Source: Paracoccaceae bacterium (GTDB lineage: Bacteria; Pseudomonadota; Alphaproteobacteria; Rhodobacterales; Rhodobacteraceae). Taken from it: DNA of 35,177 bases. Of this stretch, positions 19,391-23,820 are shown piece after piece. The stretch covers positions 1 to 35,177 of the forward strand of contig REER01000051.1 of NCBI GenBank assembly GCA_007694945.1, read 5' to 3'. The notes beneath the pieces were generated by a model. The model was not told the origin of the DNA and made no database searches. It saw only the letters and a program-made list of their open reading frames with translations. Every line of letters begins with the position of its first letter. Position 1 is the stretch's first letter. A program made the position numbers and the translations under genes.

Positions 19391-20226
19391 TCGACAACCT
19401 GCCACCCCTCCGCGAGGTGATCCGCACGCACGAGTTGCGCGCGAAGAAGAGCTTTGGGCAGAATTTCCTGCTGGACCTGAACCTGACCGCGCGGATTGCG
19501 CGAGCGGCGGGTGATCTGCGCGGCGCCGATGTGCTGGAGGTCGGGCCCGGCCCCGGTGGGCTCACGCGCGCGCTTCTGGCCGAGGGCGCGCGGCGGGTGG
19601 TCGCGGTCGAGAAGGATACGCGGTGCCTGCCTGCGCTGGCCGAGATCGCTGCAGCCTATCCGGGGCGCTTGCAGGTCATCGCGGGAGACGCGCTGGATCT
19701 GGACCCGCTTGCGCATCTGAGCCCACCTATCAAGGTGGTGGCCAATCTGCCTTATAATGTCGGCACCGAACTGCTGATCCGCTGGATGACACCCGCGCAC
19801 TGGCCGCCCTTCTGGGACAGCCTGACCCTGATGTTCCAGCGCGAGGTCGCCGAGCGCATCGTCGCGCGGCCCTGCACCAGAGCTTACGGTCGCCTTGCGC
19901 TGATGGTGCAATGGCGCGCCGAGGCGCGGATCGTGCTCAGCCTGCCGCCCGAGGCATTCACCCCGCCGCCCAAGGTCTCATCCAGCGTGGTACATATCAC
20001 GCGACTGGAGCAGCCCCGCTTTCCCGCCGATCCGGCCATTCTCGAGCGGCTTGTGGCTGCCGGGTTCAACCAGCGCCGCAAGATGCTGCGCGCGGCCCTG
20101 CGTGGGCTGCATCCGCAGATCGGGTTCCTGCTCGAAAATTCGGGCATCGCCCCCACGGCGCGGGCGGAGGAGGTCGAGTTGGAGGCCTGGTGCAGGCTGG
20201 CGCGGGCGCTGGCGGCGCCTGGCTAG
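19387..20226 (+). CDS. rsmA: 16S rRNA dimethyladenosine transferase
   Basis: Dimethylates two adjacent adenosines (A1518 and A1519, E. coli numbering) in the 3' hairpin of 16S rRNA using SAM, a late step of 30S assembly; loss gives kasugamycin resistance. The 279-residue protein has [11 protein letters not shown] at the N-terminus, SAM motif [13 protein letters not shown], the acidic motif II VAVEKD, GDALDLD, and the catalytic motif IV NLPYNVG. Its C-terminal helical domain contains [11 protein letters not shown]. The start codon overlaps the pdxA stop by four bases, the common pdxA-rsmA arrangement. Confidence 0.97.
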
Positions 20227-20251
20227 GACAGGCGGGCCCTTTACACCGGGC

Positions 20252-21253
20252 TCAGTCCGGCGAGACCGGCAGGATGCGACGGACGGGTTTGTAGGCATCG
20301 TACTGATCACGCAGCCAATCGGCACTGCAGGCGTCGATCTCGGCCACCTCGTCGAGCATGCTCTCGCGCCTGCGGGTCGCGTGCATCAACATGATACGCC
20401 GCGCCACGGCCTGATGCCCGCGCGGGCTGGCGATGAATTCCGGCTCGGGGATCAGCGCGACTGCCGGGCTGCCCATAAGCGCAAGGCTGTGATAGCTGCC
20501 AAGCGCCTCATAAAGCGCCAGCGTGCACTCGCGCGCAGTCTCGGGGCAGGTTGCGTTGCAGACCTCACGCAAGGGCGCAGCCAGCGGGTCGACTTTCAGC
20601 CAAGCGGCAAGCGCCTCGGGTGTGACTTCAAGCCCGGCAAGCACTCGCATCGGATGACCCTCGGGCAGCGCCTCACCCTCTGCGGGCTTGAGTGCGCGCC
20701 CCAATGTCAAATGCTGCAGGCTCTCCGGAAACCAGCTTGCCGCCCGGACCTCTGTCGCAAAGCCGCGTTCCTGCCGCGAGACATGGGCGAGAAGCGATTC
20801 CCGACAGGCGCGCTCCTCGCCAAGTTCGGCGAAACCTTGCGCCAGTTCTACCCCACCCTGCATCATCCACAACTCAACCCAGAGCTGTGCCAGATCTGAC
20901 TCGCTAGCGGCAGTGGTCATCCAGTTGCGGCCCGAGAGCCCACCGGCCTGGCGCAAAAGCGCAATGCGCTCTTCCCGCGGCAGATAGGTCACATGAGGCC
21001 CCTGCAACGCCGCTGATTTGTCGATCAACCCAAGCAGCACCTGCGCTGCAAGATTGCCCGCTTCTGCCAGTTCGGCGAGTCGCGGCAGCGCTTCGGCCTC
21101 GTCAGCCTCGAGCCAGGCTGCCAGAGCCTCCTGATATTCGGGCATTTCGGCGCCGCTGATCGCATCACGCGCCTCTACCATAGCAGGCAGCGCAACACTG
21201 GCGAAGCAAAAGATGCACAAGCCGCGCAAATGGCGAAACAGATAGGTAATCAT
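20252..21253 (-). CDS. Exported protein of unknown function with Sel1-like segment
   Basis: A 333-residue protein, not recognised as a named family. The N-terminus (ITYLFRHLRGLCIFCFASVALPAM) is a signal peptide with cleavage likely near VEA around residue 27. One Sel1/TPR-like helical pair follows (ALPRLAELAEAGNLAAQVLLGLI, 55-77). The rest is helical with four clustered cysteines in CNATCPETARECTL and nearby, suggesting disulfides in the periplasm. ATG 21253 has AAGGA 6 bases upstream; a longer frame to 21298 lacks support. Convergent with rsmA, 25 bp apart. The predicted small RNA gene lies upstream on the same strand and ends before this gene's promoter. Confidence 0.75.
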   Translation of the reverse strand: MITYLFRHLRGLCIFCFASVALPAMVEARDAISGAEMPEYQEALAAWLEADEAEALPRLAELAEAGNLAAQVLLGLIDKSAALQGPHVTYLPREERIALLRQAGGLSGRNWMTTAASESDLAQLWVELWMMQGGVELAQGFAELGEERACRESLLAHVSRQERGFATEVRAASWFPESLQHLTLGRALKPAEGEALPEGHPMRVLAGLEVTPEALAAWLKVDPLAAPLREVCNATCPETARECTLALYEALGSYHSLALMGSPAVALIPEPEFIASPRGHQAVARRIMLMHATRRRESMLDEVAEIDACSADWLRDQYDAYKPVRRILPVSPD

Positions 21254-21392
21254 GCGGTTCCTTGCGTCTTCGGGCGGACGCTTATTGCTCACTCCCATGG
21301 GGATAGTATGCCGTTGTCGACCGCTTGCAGCAAGCGCTTATCTGCGCGCGCGGTGTCACAACATCTGGAAAATTCGGTCTTGAGTGAGCAGG

Positions 21393-21420
21393 AAAAAAAC
21401 CACCCCTGAAACAGGGGTGG
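21393..21420 (-). terminator. Strong intrinsic terminator of the predicted small RNA
   Basis: CCACCCCTG and CAGGGGTGG (21420-21412 and 21408-21400 on the minus strand) form a perfect 9-bp stem with a 3-base loop, followed by seven T residues. It points leftwards, although no annotated minus-strand protein gene lies immediately upstream. This is the first hint of an extra transcript here. Confidence 0.92.
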
Positions 21421-21489
21421 CAGTCAATCCGCGCGTCGGCGGAACAGGGAGGAAAAGTTTTCAATACTCCGAATAAGGTCATTGAAAAC
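21393..21489 (-). ncRNA. Predicted FnrL-activated small RNA (about 97 nt)
   Basis: Read on the minus strand from 21489. A perfect 9-bp stem-loop opens the transcript: GUUUUCAAU (21489-21481) pairs with AUUGAAAAC (21465-21457) around a 15-base loop. The open segment UUUUCCUCCCUGUUCC (21456-21441) follows and includes a CCUCCC that could pair with Shine-Dalgarno sequences. A weak 4-bp hairpin comes next, then a 9-bp terminator with seven U residues. Upstream are a -10 (TATCAA, 21501-21496) and a perfect FnrL box centred 41.5 bp before the predicted start. No protein of meaningful length fits. The architecture resembles trans-acting riboregulators such as enterobacterial FnrS, but no sequence relation is claimed. 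Transcription is predicted, not shown. Confidence 0.75.
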
Positions 21490-21495
21490 ATGCTT

Positions 21496-21501
21496 TTGAT
21501 A
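21496..21501 (-). promoter_or_regulatory. -10 element of the predicted small RNA
   Basis: TATCAA matches four of six consensus positions and occupies -12 to -7 relative to a start at 21489. This is the same base at which the 5' stem-loop begins. Confidence 0.5.
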
Positions 21502-21523
21502 CATCTCTTTTCACATGACGTCC

Positions 21524-21537
21524 TTGATTTGGATCAA
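21524..21537. promoter_or_regulatory. FnrL (FNR-type) binding site
   Basis: TTGAT-TTGG-ATCAA is a perfect FNR/FnrL consensus palindrome. Its centre (21530.5) is 41.5 bp from the predicted leftward start at 21489, the classic class II activation position. In the other direction the nearest gene start (21788) is about 257 bp away, too far for this geometry. Confidence 0.88.
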
Positions 21538-21787
21538 ATAAAGGAGTCGCGTTGGGGGGCATTTCAGACATGGCGAATGTTGCGCGATCCGCGAGCCAAT
21601 GAGGCAAGGCGCTGAGCGCCACGCAGCTGAGGGCGAACAGTCTTGGCGAACCGTGCCTTTTGTTTACCGGAGAAGAACACCGGCTTGACTCCCGCTCGGT
21701 TTCGATGCTCTGCGCGCCCGCGCCCCATTTGTTTCGGAAAGCAGACCGGATAAGCTTTGCCCCGAATGACGCGGCTGAGGGCAGCAG

Positions 21788-22720
21788 ATGACAACACGAC
21801 CCAATGTTTTCGACGAGATCGACCTGACTCGTGCCAGGACCGAAGCCGAATGGCTCGCCCGGCTCGATGAGATCGGCGACGAACTTGGCGTGTTCGAACC
21901 CCTGGGCACGCAACACGCGGCCTTTTTCGCTGACGGCAATGATACGCTGCTGGTCGGTTTCGAGTCGGTCGCGCAGATTCGCAGCACCCGCGCCGACCAG
22001 CGCCCACTGGGGCAGGTGATTGCGCAGCGCCACGGCTGGTCGAGCCTCTCCCTGCTGGCGCGCGCCCCGCGCTGGTATCGCGATGCTGAAGTTCTGGATT
22101 TCTTTGATGCCCAGATCGACGAGGGGTTCTTCGACAGTTTCGCGCGCGTGTTGTTCTATGGTGAGGGAATGCACGGCTACGCGGCCTGTGCCTTCAGCCT
22201 TGCCGCGCCCGGGGCCACCGTGCTGGCGATCGCCCCGCAGGCCACGCTCGACCCCGATATCGCGCCATGGGAGCGGCGGTTTCGCTCGGCGCGTCGTTTC
22301 GACTTCCGCAGCCGTTTCGGTTATGCACCGAACATGCTCGAAGGCGCGCGCAATGTCTTTGTCGTCTTTGACCCCTCGCACAAGACCGAAGCCATGCATG
22401 CCACACTTTTCCGCCAGCCTTTCGTGACCGTGTTGCGCAGCCCGAGGCTGGGACGCGACACGGCAGCGGGGCTGGAGCGGATCGGGGTGCTGGACACGCT
22501 GATCGAGACCGCAGCGCGCGGACGTCTGACGCCTGCCCGCTTCTTCGACATGATGCGCAAGCGGCGGCAGGACCCGGACTATCTCAAGGCGCTGGTCAAG
22601 CGCGCGGCCAATCGCGGCCATCAGGCGCTGACCGTGATCGCAGCGCGGGCGGCAATGGCGCAGGGCGGAGCAGCACCGCGCAAGGCACCGCACCGAAGCG
22701 ACACTGCCCCAGCCGATTGA
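21788..22720 (+). CDS. Conserved protein, often labelled PAPS reductase-like
   Basis: A 310-residue protein. I recognise the family from Rhodobacteraceae, where the label phosphoadenosine phosphosulfate reductase is common. I see no PAPS-reductase features: no PP-loop SGGxDS and no C-terminal ECGLH. The core instead has ARVLFYGEGMHGYAACAFS, then ATVLAIAPQATLDPDIAPWERRF. This looks like a strand, tight turn and helix, as at the nucleophile elbow of alpha/beta hydrolases but without a serine or cysteine in the G-x-G-x-x-G turn. GAGG lies about 8 bases before ATG 21788. No signal peptide is visible. The C-terminus is basic and low in complexity. The function is unknown and the common label is probably wrong. 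Confidence 0.7.
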   Translation: MTTRPNVFDEIDLTRARTEAEWLARLDEIGDELGVFEPLGTQHAAFFADGNDTLLVGFESVAQIRSTRADQRPLGQVIAQRHGWSSLSLLARAPRWYRDAEVLDFFDAQIDEGFFDSFARVLFYGEGMHGYAACAFSLAAPGATVLAIAPQATLDPDIAPWERRFRSARRFDFRSRFGYAPNMLEGARNVFVVFDPSHKTEAMHATLFRQPFVTVLRSPRLGRDTAAGLERIGVLDTLIETAARGRLTPARFFDMMRKRRQDPDYLKALVKRAANRGHQALTVIAARAAMAQGGAAPRKAPHRSDTAPAD

Positions 22721-22779
22721 GCCGGCAGAAGCGCGAATCCGTCTGGCACAGGGCGGGCGCTTTCGTGTAAAACGGCGCC

Positions 22780-23820
22780 ATGACCCAGCGCCTCACCCTG
22801 CCCCGCCCTGATGACTGGCATCTGCATCTGCGCGATGGCGCGATGCTGCAAGGCATCGCGCCAGAGAGCGCGCGCCATTTTGCCCGCGCCATCATCATGC
22901 CCAATCTCGTGCCTCCGGTTGTCACCGGGGCCGAAGCCGCCGCCTATCGCGACCGGATTCTGGCCGTCACCGGCACAGGCTTCACGCCCCTGATGACGCT
23001 CTATCTGACCGAGGCGACGGATCCGGCCGATGTCGTCGCCGCGCATCGCGACGGCATCATCACGGCGGTCAAGCTCTACCCCGCTGGGGCCACGACCAAT
23101 TCCGCGTCGGGCGTGCGCGATTTCGACCGCGTGCGCGGCGTACTCGAGGCGATGGCCGAGGCGGGCATTCCGCTGCTCTGCCATGGCGAAGTGACCGACC
23201 CCGAGATCGATATCTTCGACCGCGAGGCAGTGTTCATCGACCGCGTGCTCGATCCGATCCGCCTCGCGACACCGGGGCTGCGCGTGGTGATGGAACATAT
23301 CACCACCGCCGACGCCGTGAATTATGTCACCTCCGAGCCCCAAGGGCTTTGCGCCACGATCACCACGCATCACCTGGTCATCAACCGCAACCATATCCTC
23401 GTCGGCGGGATCAAACCGCATTACTACTGCCTGCCCGTGGCCAAGCGCGAAACCCACCGCGAGGCGCTGGTCAAGGCGGCGACCTCGGGCGATGCGCGCT
23501 TTTTCCTCGGTACCGATAGCGCCCCCCATTCCGATGACGCCAAGGAAAGCGCCTGCGGATGCGCGGGCTGTTTCACTGCGACCAACACGCTATCGATCCT
23601 TGCACATGTGTTCGAGAATGCAGACGCGCTCGACCGGCTGGAAGGTTTCACCTCGCGCCACGGTCCGGCCTTCTATGGCCTGCCGGTCAATGCCGGGACC
23701 ATCACCCTCGAACGACGCGACACCCCTGTCACCTACCCCACAAAAATCGAGACCGGCGCCGGACCTGTCTCCGTCTTCGACCCCGGTTTTCCGCTCCACT
23801 GGCAGGTGATGCCGGAGTAA
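22780..23820 (+). CDS. pyrC: Dihydroorotase
   Basis: Zinc hydrolase that cyclises carbamoyl-aspartate to dihydroorotate in pyrimidine synthesis. The 346-residue type II (E. coli-like) enzyme has the binuclear metal site: H14 and H16 in [10 protein letters not shown], carbamylated K98 in [14 protein letters not shown]135 in LLCHGEV, H173 in VMEHITT and D246 in GTDSAPH. ATG 22780 lacks a strong Shine-Dalgarno sequence but gives the standard family start ([14 protein letters not shown]). It probably forms an operon with pyrE, 72 bp downstream. A copy of the 22-nt repeat lies in that gap. Confidence 0.97.

Follow-up and report, generated by a model that had tools for sequence, protein, structure and literature searches.

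The window, a stretch of 35,177 nucleotides (contig REER01000051.1, positions 1 to 35,177), comes from a soda-lake relative of Rhodobacter, whose genus appears to be Roseinatronobacter in the wide sense. Inspection of its minus strand reveals, in order, an FNR box, a -10 element, a start at 21489, a first hairpin, an unpaired UUUUCCUCCCUGU, a middle hairpin, and a terminator, all of which lie between two genes for hypothetical proteins.

21788..22720, plus strand: divergent hypothetical protein, upstream; judged to lie outside the unit, with 3 of 25 homologs showing no such gene at the slot
21524..21537, minus strand: FnrL (FNR) box TTGATCCAAATCAA, a perfect palindrome with its centre at -41.5 relative to 21489
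21496..21501, minus strand: -10-like hexamer TATCAA, at -12 to -7 of the start 21489
21393..21489, minus strand: predicted small RNA of 97 nt; fold z -5.4; covariance-model match in 25 of 37 genus genomes
21457..21489, minus strand: hairpin 1, opening at the predicted first transcribed base; sequence variable and pairing kept among homologs
21444..21456, minus strand: unpaired UUUUCCUCCCUGU, anti-Shine-Dalgarno core and predicted seed; accessibility 0.93
21428..21443, minus strand: middle hairpin UCCGC-CGACGC-GCGGA, missing from the SorX and SorY consensus
21393..21421, minus strand: intrinsic terminator, a 10-bp stem (21421-21399) followed by a U run
20252..21298, minus strand: hypothetical protein, downstream on the same strand; judged to lie outside the unit, with 8 of 25 homologs showing no such gene at the slot

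An earlier note, made from the letters of the window, had described a perfect box centred 41.5 bp upstream of 21489, the hexamer TATCAA, a 9-bp hairpin, and a terminator with seven U residues, and every one of these elements is present on the minus strand. Hairpin 1 consists of nine perfect pairs from 21489 onwards (arms GTTTTCAAT and ATTGAAAAC), and the seven U residues occupy 21399-21393, the first of them closing the terminator stem. The open stretch proposed between the two hairpins needs to be shortened: UUUUCCUCCCUGU is indeed unpaired, while the last bases, UCC from 21443, belong to the 5-bp middle hairpin at 21443-21428.

The box near -41.5 together with a -10 element, the latter judged by eye, gives the layout of an FNR-activated class II promoter. 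A -35 consensus is absent here, and no sigma70-type promoter-like site was found within 20200-22800; at class II FNR promoters a -35 consensus is not expected. FNR boxes with at most one mismatch occur three times in the window against 0.60 expected, and the only perfect one is that of the small RNA. The whole genome (G000) contains eight perfect boxes, one of which adjoins fnrL. At gathering scores, Rfam gave no match in the window.

Conservation in the genus

The covariance model search proposed in the earlier note was carried out with a model built from 18 homologs, and it located the unit at E<1e-7 in 25 of 37 Roseinatronobacter genomes, always at the same slot. Among 394 family genomes searched with stricter filters, strong matches were confined to the two Roseinatronobacter genomes. 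When a collection of 84,980 species was searched for exact matches to box and core together, 15 stretches came up, whose records are labelled Roseinatronobacter, Roseibaca, Natronohydrobacter, or unclassified Rhodobacteraceae or Alphaproteobacteria. Box and core occur together in Roseinatronobacter thiooxidans ALG1, Roseibaca ekhonensis CECT 7235, and Roseibaca domitiana V10. In the covariance-model search of the 394 family genomes and the exact search of the 84,980 species, the small RNA is thus known so far from one genus. A blastn search gave matches in 19 of 60 genomes, including one chance match in another family.

The box is perfect (10/10) in 18 of the 25 homologs and scores 9/10 in five and 8/10 in one (G022); it is absent from the remaining one (G020). 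Its centre lies 42.5 bp upstream of the G of the conserved ATGTTT-type start in 18 homologs, 41.5 bp in two (the window and G004), and 43.5 and 44.5 bp in one each, a near-constant range of -41.5 to -44.5 in 22 of 25. The start or box is ill-defined in the other three, G020, G022, and G023, the last of which has a perfect box without the usual start. The distance from box to core, in turn, spans 68.5 to 112.5, a spread caused by the differing lengths of hairpin 1. Since the distance to the start is nearly constant and that to the core is not, the box is held to the RNA start and not to the core. Loss of box, -10, and hairpins in close relatives had been named as evidence that would speak against the small RNA. 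Box and hairpins are kept, which gives no refutation; the -10 is, by eye only, a varying A+T-rich hexamer in the homologs, and the unit as a whole is missing from 12 of the 37 genomes. As a separate observation, the stretch from start to core is greatly enlarged at two loci, L181 (G008) and L173 (G033), where box spacing and core are unchanged.

RNA fold and candidate targets

For a 99-nt stretch covering the RNA, the fold reaches -36.2 kcal/mol (z -5.4), a value equalled by none of 200 shuffled sequences. Together with the box expectation and the conservation of the box, these shuffles reject a chance origin of box or terminator. RNAalifold on a MAFFT alignment missed hairpin 1, which shifts in register between homologs, and the hairpin was therefore tested sequence by sequence, omitting G022, where no start was found, and setting the start of G020 by hand. 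It is paired from the first base in 22 of the 24 homologs with a start, with 2 to 14 unbroken pairs (homologs without shuffle control). When pairs are ranked from the base of the stem, a register that length differences shift, ranks 1-4 hardly vary, and at ranks 5-10 U-A, U-G, C-G, A-U, and G-C replace one another. For the middle hairpin and terminator, in an alignment fitted to the model, 95.1% of cells are paired versus 86.4% in shuffles, and 37 cells are changed on both sides versus 11.6; five pairs show such a double change, a count reached by 88 of 500 shuffles.

Between these structures, UUCCUCCCUGU is invariant across 18 homolog sequences; in G022 the core reads AUCCUCCCUGU. For the window, the core has a predicted accessibility of 0.93; over the 25 homologs the value averages 0.77, with about 0.5 in five of them. 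In this test, as in that of open reading frames below, a regex for the terminator truncated the RNAs of G028 and G020, and those of G020, G022, and G023 have approximate starts. Strong Shine-Dalgarno sequences are complementary to the core, and an exposed complement to target ribosome-binding sites is, as modelled, what a trans-acting anti-Shine-Dalgarno small RNA would present. Hfq is predicted as a partner, the U-rich terminator tail being the one Hfq-related feature.

Ribosome-binding sites are rich in Shine-Dalgarno sequence anyway, and matches to the core have to be read against this background. Across the 37 genus genomes, CAGGGAGGAA is found repeatedly, in 13 genomes ahead of the spacer TCAG-ATG and in 10 ahead of CAC-ATG; the reversed control pattern of CAGGGAGGAA has no match in the 37 genomes. 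In the genomes read, the first of these genes encodes a sugar-type solute-binding protein belonging to the SBP_bac_1 family (4 of 13 read, one checked with Pfam), and the second an XylF-like protein (3 of 10 read, one checked with NCBIfam). Because these strings also occur in genomes without the small RNA (5 of 13 and 3 of 10, respectively), the targets may be shared with sibling RNAs or belong to them. In the genome of the window only two ribosome-binding sites match 10 core bases. An 8-base version gives 29 matches (one for the reversed control), of which 27 are distinct and 21 precede an open reading frame of at least 90 codons. The ten of the 21 that were checked, chosen by eye and with no base rate for transporters, comprise six transporter parts and two subunits of pyruvate dehydrogenase, E1-alpha and E2; the 10-base form also stands before lpdA (E3) in three other genomes (two read, one checked). 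At a further locus (L247, G003:C43), a perfect 10-base core complement precedes a gene that by eye resembles a hydrogenase small subunit.

Relation to SorX, SorY, and other small RNAs

The earlier note knew of no described counterpart in this group, a statement that does not hold: SorX and SorY share the core, and an FnrL ChIP-seq site is reported at SorX (PMC4263372, in the part of the report that covers this site). SorX (RF02784) resembles the Roseinatronobacter RNA in its hairpin, single-stranded CCUCCCUGU, GAC, and terminator. SorY (RF02651) of R. sphaeroides has a similar 5′ hairpin, CCUCCCUGUUGGACU, and terminator. The Rfam entries of both contain CCUCCCUGUUGGAC, and both RNAs of Rhodobacter share CCUCCCUGU and GACU with the Roseinatronobacter RNA, which differs from them by a middle hairpin between these two elements. 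GACU is kept in 19 of the 25 homologs and not in the other six. The RNA thus shows the parts of what we call, as a working name, the SorX/SorY-like core group, namely single-stranded UUCCUCCCUGU after a 5′ hairpin, GACU, and a terminator, with the middle hairpin as an extra.

The Rfam model of SorX (cut-off 46.6 bits) found no match in the window segment 21340-21560 at E<=10 and none at E<=1 in five homologs, and that of SorY (cut-off 111 bits) found none in the same segment or homologs. The RNA is therefore not filed as SorX or SorY, and its kinship with them rests on the core, the order of parts, and weak model matches. RNase E is described as releasing SorX from the 3′ UTR of ompR (PMC6238624, in the section concerned), and PMC3320616, in the part concerned, lists SorX as co-transcribed from an RpoHI/II promoter. 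The Roseinatronobacter RNA differs in having its own FNR-boxed promoter, a different locus, and the middle hairpin. No ompR was recognised beside it in the 25 homologs, whose neighbours are pyrC- and rsmA-side genes. SorY, an oxidative-stress RNA that influences takP mRNA stability, has its own promoter, and the account of it in PMC6238624 mentions, in the part concerned with SorY, no FNR box, whereas the Roseinatronobacter RNA has one.

The exact motif TTCCTCCCTGT occurs at 82 sites and in all 37 genus genomes; in the genome of the window it finds this RNA only. By regex, the sites divide into 24 FnrL-boxed small RNAs, 21 of a HerA-side type, 13 SorX-like copies in as many genomes, 19 with a start codon just past the complement, and five others, among them one that by eye is a further, 22nd HerA-side copy. 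By our estimate, chance alone would place a start codon close enough to the complement at roughly one site in three. The five SorX-like copies inspected (L144 986-1063, L125, L126, L141, and L106) are found downstream of a gene read as an OmpR-type response regulator. The copy at L144, the one checked in this way, is assigned to SorX by Rfam, with 73 bits (the score of the SorX-like RNA of G029) against a cut-off of 46.6, and its regulator is confirmed by Pfam.

The HerA-side RNA (UUCCUCCCUGU N1-4 GACU and a terminator; L022-L026, L028, L031-L035, L037, L038, L040, and L145) lies, in the copies inspected, between a gene for a HerA-type ATPase and ialB, a reading of the neighbours for which Pfam was run on one locus. 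Its exact pattern is present in 220 of 394 family genomes (393 genera) and the reversed control in two; by eye its promoter resembles ATC-TTAACC...GCCAG. Scored against SorX and SorY, two such copies reach 31-33 and 27-29 bits, respectively, under both cut-offs. The covariance model of the Roseinatronobacter RNA picks up these relatives weakly: nine of its 26 weaker genus matches (E up to 0.5) are SorX-like or HerA-side copies, and 14 of 20 weak matches in other genera show the HerA-side core. An assignment of the weak family-wide matches to UpsM was dropped, because those inspected (5 + 3 loci) adjoin HerA-type ATPase-like and IalB-like genes. The HerA-side RNA may be SorY or Intergenic 60 of P. 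denitrificans, and Intergenic 60, 134, and 100 of that species (PMC5107571) are possible members of the same core group. P. denitrificans sRNA-29 was set aside by its description, being highest aerobically in the part of PMC6686037 that describes it and listed as antisense (PMC5107571).

Other known RNAs are more distant. The CcsR1-4 RNAs of alphaproteobacteria and the CCUCCUCCC ('cuckoo') RNAs share an exposed anti-Shine-Dalgarno segment with the Roseinatronobacter RNA and carry the CCUCCUCCC motif in loops. CcsR1-4 are cut from the ccaF1 3′ UTR, as stated in the relevant part of PMC8625941. Anti-hemB (RF02837) of Burkholderia has UCCUCCCUG and a terminator in common with it and gave sub-threshold matches of 22-34 bits in five of six loci tested (cut-off 49.5 bits), but its core sits in a hairpin loop and it belongs to another bacterial class. 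Rfam also holds an FnrS family, which was not among the matches at E<=10 in the segment 21340-21560. The analogy with enterobacterial FnrS had been drawn for logic, and the likeness is indeed confined to logic; FnrS is an FNR-activated small RNA that represses mRNAs dispensable without oxygen (PMC8139620, in its section on FnrS). In searches of open-licence papers, we found no description of an FNR-boxed small RNA of this kind and, among the papers listed, no small RNA study of the genus Roseinatronobacter.

Proposed mechanism and its alternatives

We consider it probable that the locus encodes an FnrL-activated, trans-acting anti-Shine-Dalgarno small RNA that, at falling oxygen, keeps mRNAs for carbon uptake and central metabolism from being translated. 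With falling oxygen, FnrL carrying its iron-sulphur cluster would bind the box at -41.5 and activate transcription as at a class II promoter, giving a 97-nt RNA that would end at its own terminator. The 5′ hairpin and the terminator would frame the unpaired UUUUCCUCCCUGU, which could then, probably together with Hfq, base-pair to the purine-rich Shine-Dalgarno sequences of mRNAs (ACAGGGAGGAA and shorter forms) and thereby block ribosome entry. Sugar, TRAP, and tricarboxylate transporters, through their periplasmic binding proteins, are likely targets, as are genes such as those for pyruvate dehydrogenase; by analogy with FnrS, curbing uptake and pyruvate oxidation at low oxygen would make sense. 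The earlier note had read the locus as an FnrL-activated small RNA, and conservation backs this reading in its class II box, its short RNA independent of neighbouring genes, its exposed anti-Shine-Dalgarno core, and its terminator, the exception being the supposed lack of a counterpart.

Judged by the shared core and the order of parts, the RNA appears to be an FNR-wired sibling of known anti-Shine-Dalgarno small RNAs, in which promoter, slot, and hairpin are new; it would share its seed with SorX and SorY and differ in its input, and descent from a common ancestor would fit this likeness. A broader picture, slightly short of probable, is that Rhodobacteraceae possess a set of sibling small RNAs with one seed (UUCCUCCCUGU) and several inputs, namely photo-oxidative stress for SorX and SorY, a promoter of the HerA/IalB type, and oxygen loss through FnrL in Roseinatronobacter. 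One anti-Shine-Dalgarno code for carbon-uptake genes would then be read under opposite oxygen conditions, the FnrL copy having been gained at one slot and tuned by the added hairpin. In R. sphaeroides, the parts of the ChIP-seq report that concern these sites give 62 FnrL sites, of which 13 are not upstream of annotated genes; two of the 13 were assigned to RSs0019 and RSs2461, with no effect on these small RNAs measured there, and the latter site lies in the putative promoter region of RSs2461 (PMC4263372). RSs2461 is SorX, as identified in the relevant part of PMC5036791. Another low-oxygen small RNA, PcrZ, is controlled by PrrA and perhaps indirectly by FnrL (PMC8139620, in its section on PcrZ). 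For alphaproteobacterial phototrophs and denitrifiers, the locus offers a concrete candidate for an FNR-controlled small RNA driven from a promoter of its own. The candidate is conserved in a genus that includes cultured members, and it is linked to SorX and SorY, two RNAs of partly known function. The idea of one anti-Shine-Dalgarno seed common to several oxygen and stress inputs becomes open to test, as does the reason for the presence of FnrL at the SorX promoter region in R. sphaeroides.

An FnrL-driven RNA could instead act mainly by capturing another RNA or a protein, as a sponge for a SorX or SorY target or for Hfq, and competition for partners is possible because the core is shared with siblings in many of the same genomes. 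We regard this as unlikely, since the core perfectly complements sequences placed as ribosome-binding sites, which fits direct pairing, and no sign of a sponge was seen.

It had also been stated that no protein gene could use the promoter or the terminator. The same-strand reading frame at 20252-21298 contradicts this, and it raises the alternative that the element is a leader or attenuator, with the FNR promoter serving the downstream hypothetical gene and the terminator being conditional. That gene does follow on the same strand in the window and in 16 more of the 25 homologs, but a convergent rsmA takes its place in seven and no gene was recognised in one, and in these eight a box of at least 9/10, the core, and the terminator persist. 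Synteny makes a leader role very unlikely. On the upstream side, the divergent hypothetical gene is replaced by pyrC in three of 25 homologs and present in 22. Pfam and NCBIfam gave no match for either neighbour (20252-21298 and 21788-22720), though homologs stand at most genus slots, and a reading of the divergent one as 'PAPS-like' was dropped for lack of support from both databases.

Equally improbable, in our judgement, is that FnrL represses here or that another Crp/FNR protein, such as a Dnr-type regulator, uses the box. The case is known by sequence, and the model of the Crp-type HTH family finds 11 matches in G000, five of them, FnrL included, above the cut-off; against this stand the near-constant class II activator distance in 22 of 25 homologs and the presence of FnrL in all 37 genomes at 83-100% identity (in the genome of the window, equivalog NF045989 with 448 bits, cut-off 300). 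A small leaderless reading frame from the ATG at 21491, in place of a regulatory RNA, is scarcely credible, because the well-conserved ATGTTT, which opens 69 codons in the window, has no conserved frame, with open lengths of 2-96 codons, the core in mixed frames, and stops within four codons in G009, G017, and G033.

Against the preferred reading, an FnrL-activated small RNA, stand the 12 genomes that lack the unit. The divergent gene is present in eleven of them, and in 10 the slot can be read; there the first 520 bases past that gene contain no UUCCUCCC core and no box of at least 8/10, except for one in G016 that lies inside the homology of the neighbouring gene. Loss of fnrL is ruled out as the reason for these absences, since all 37 genomes encode it. 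In two genomes with no small RNA at the slot (G003:C139 and G031:C30), the fnrL match reads through one TAG, which could reflect a wrong N-terminus or a real change.
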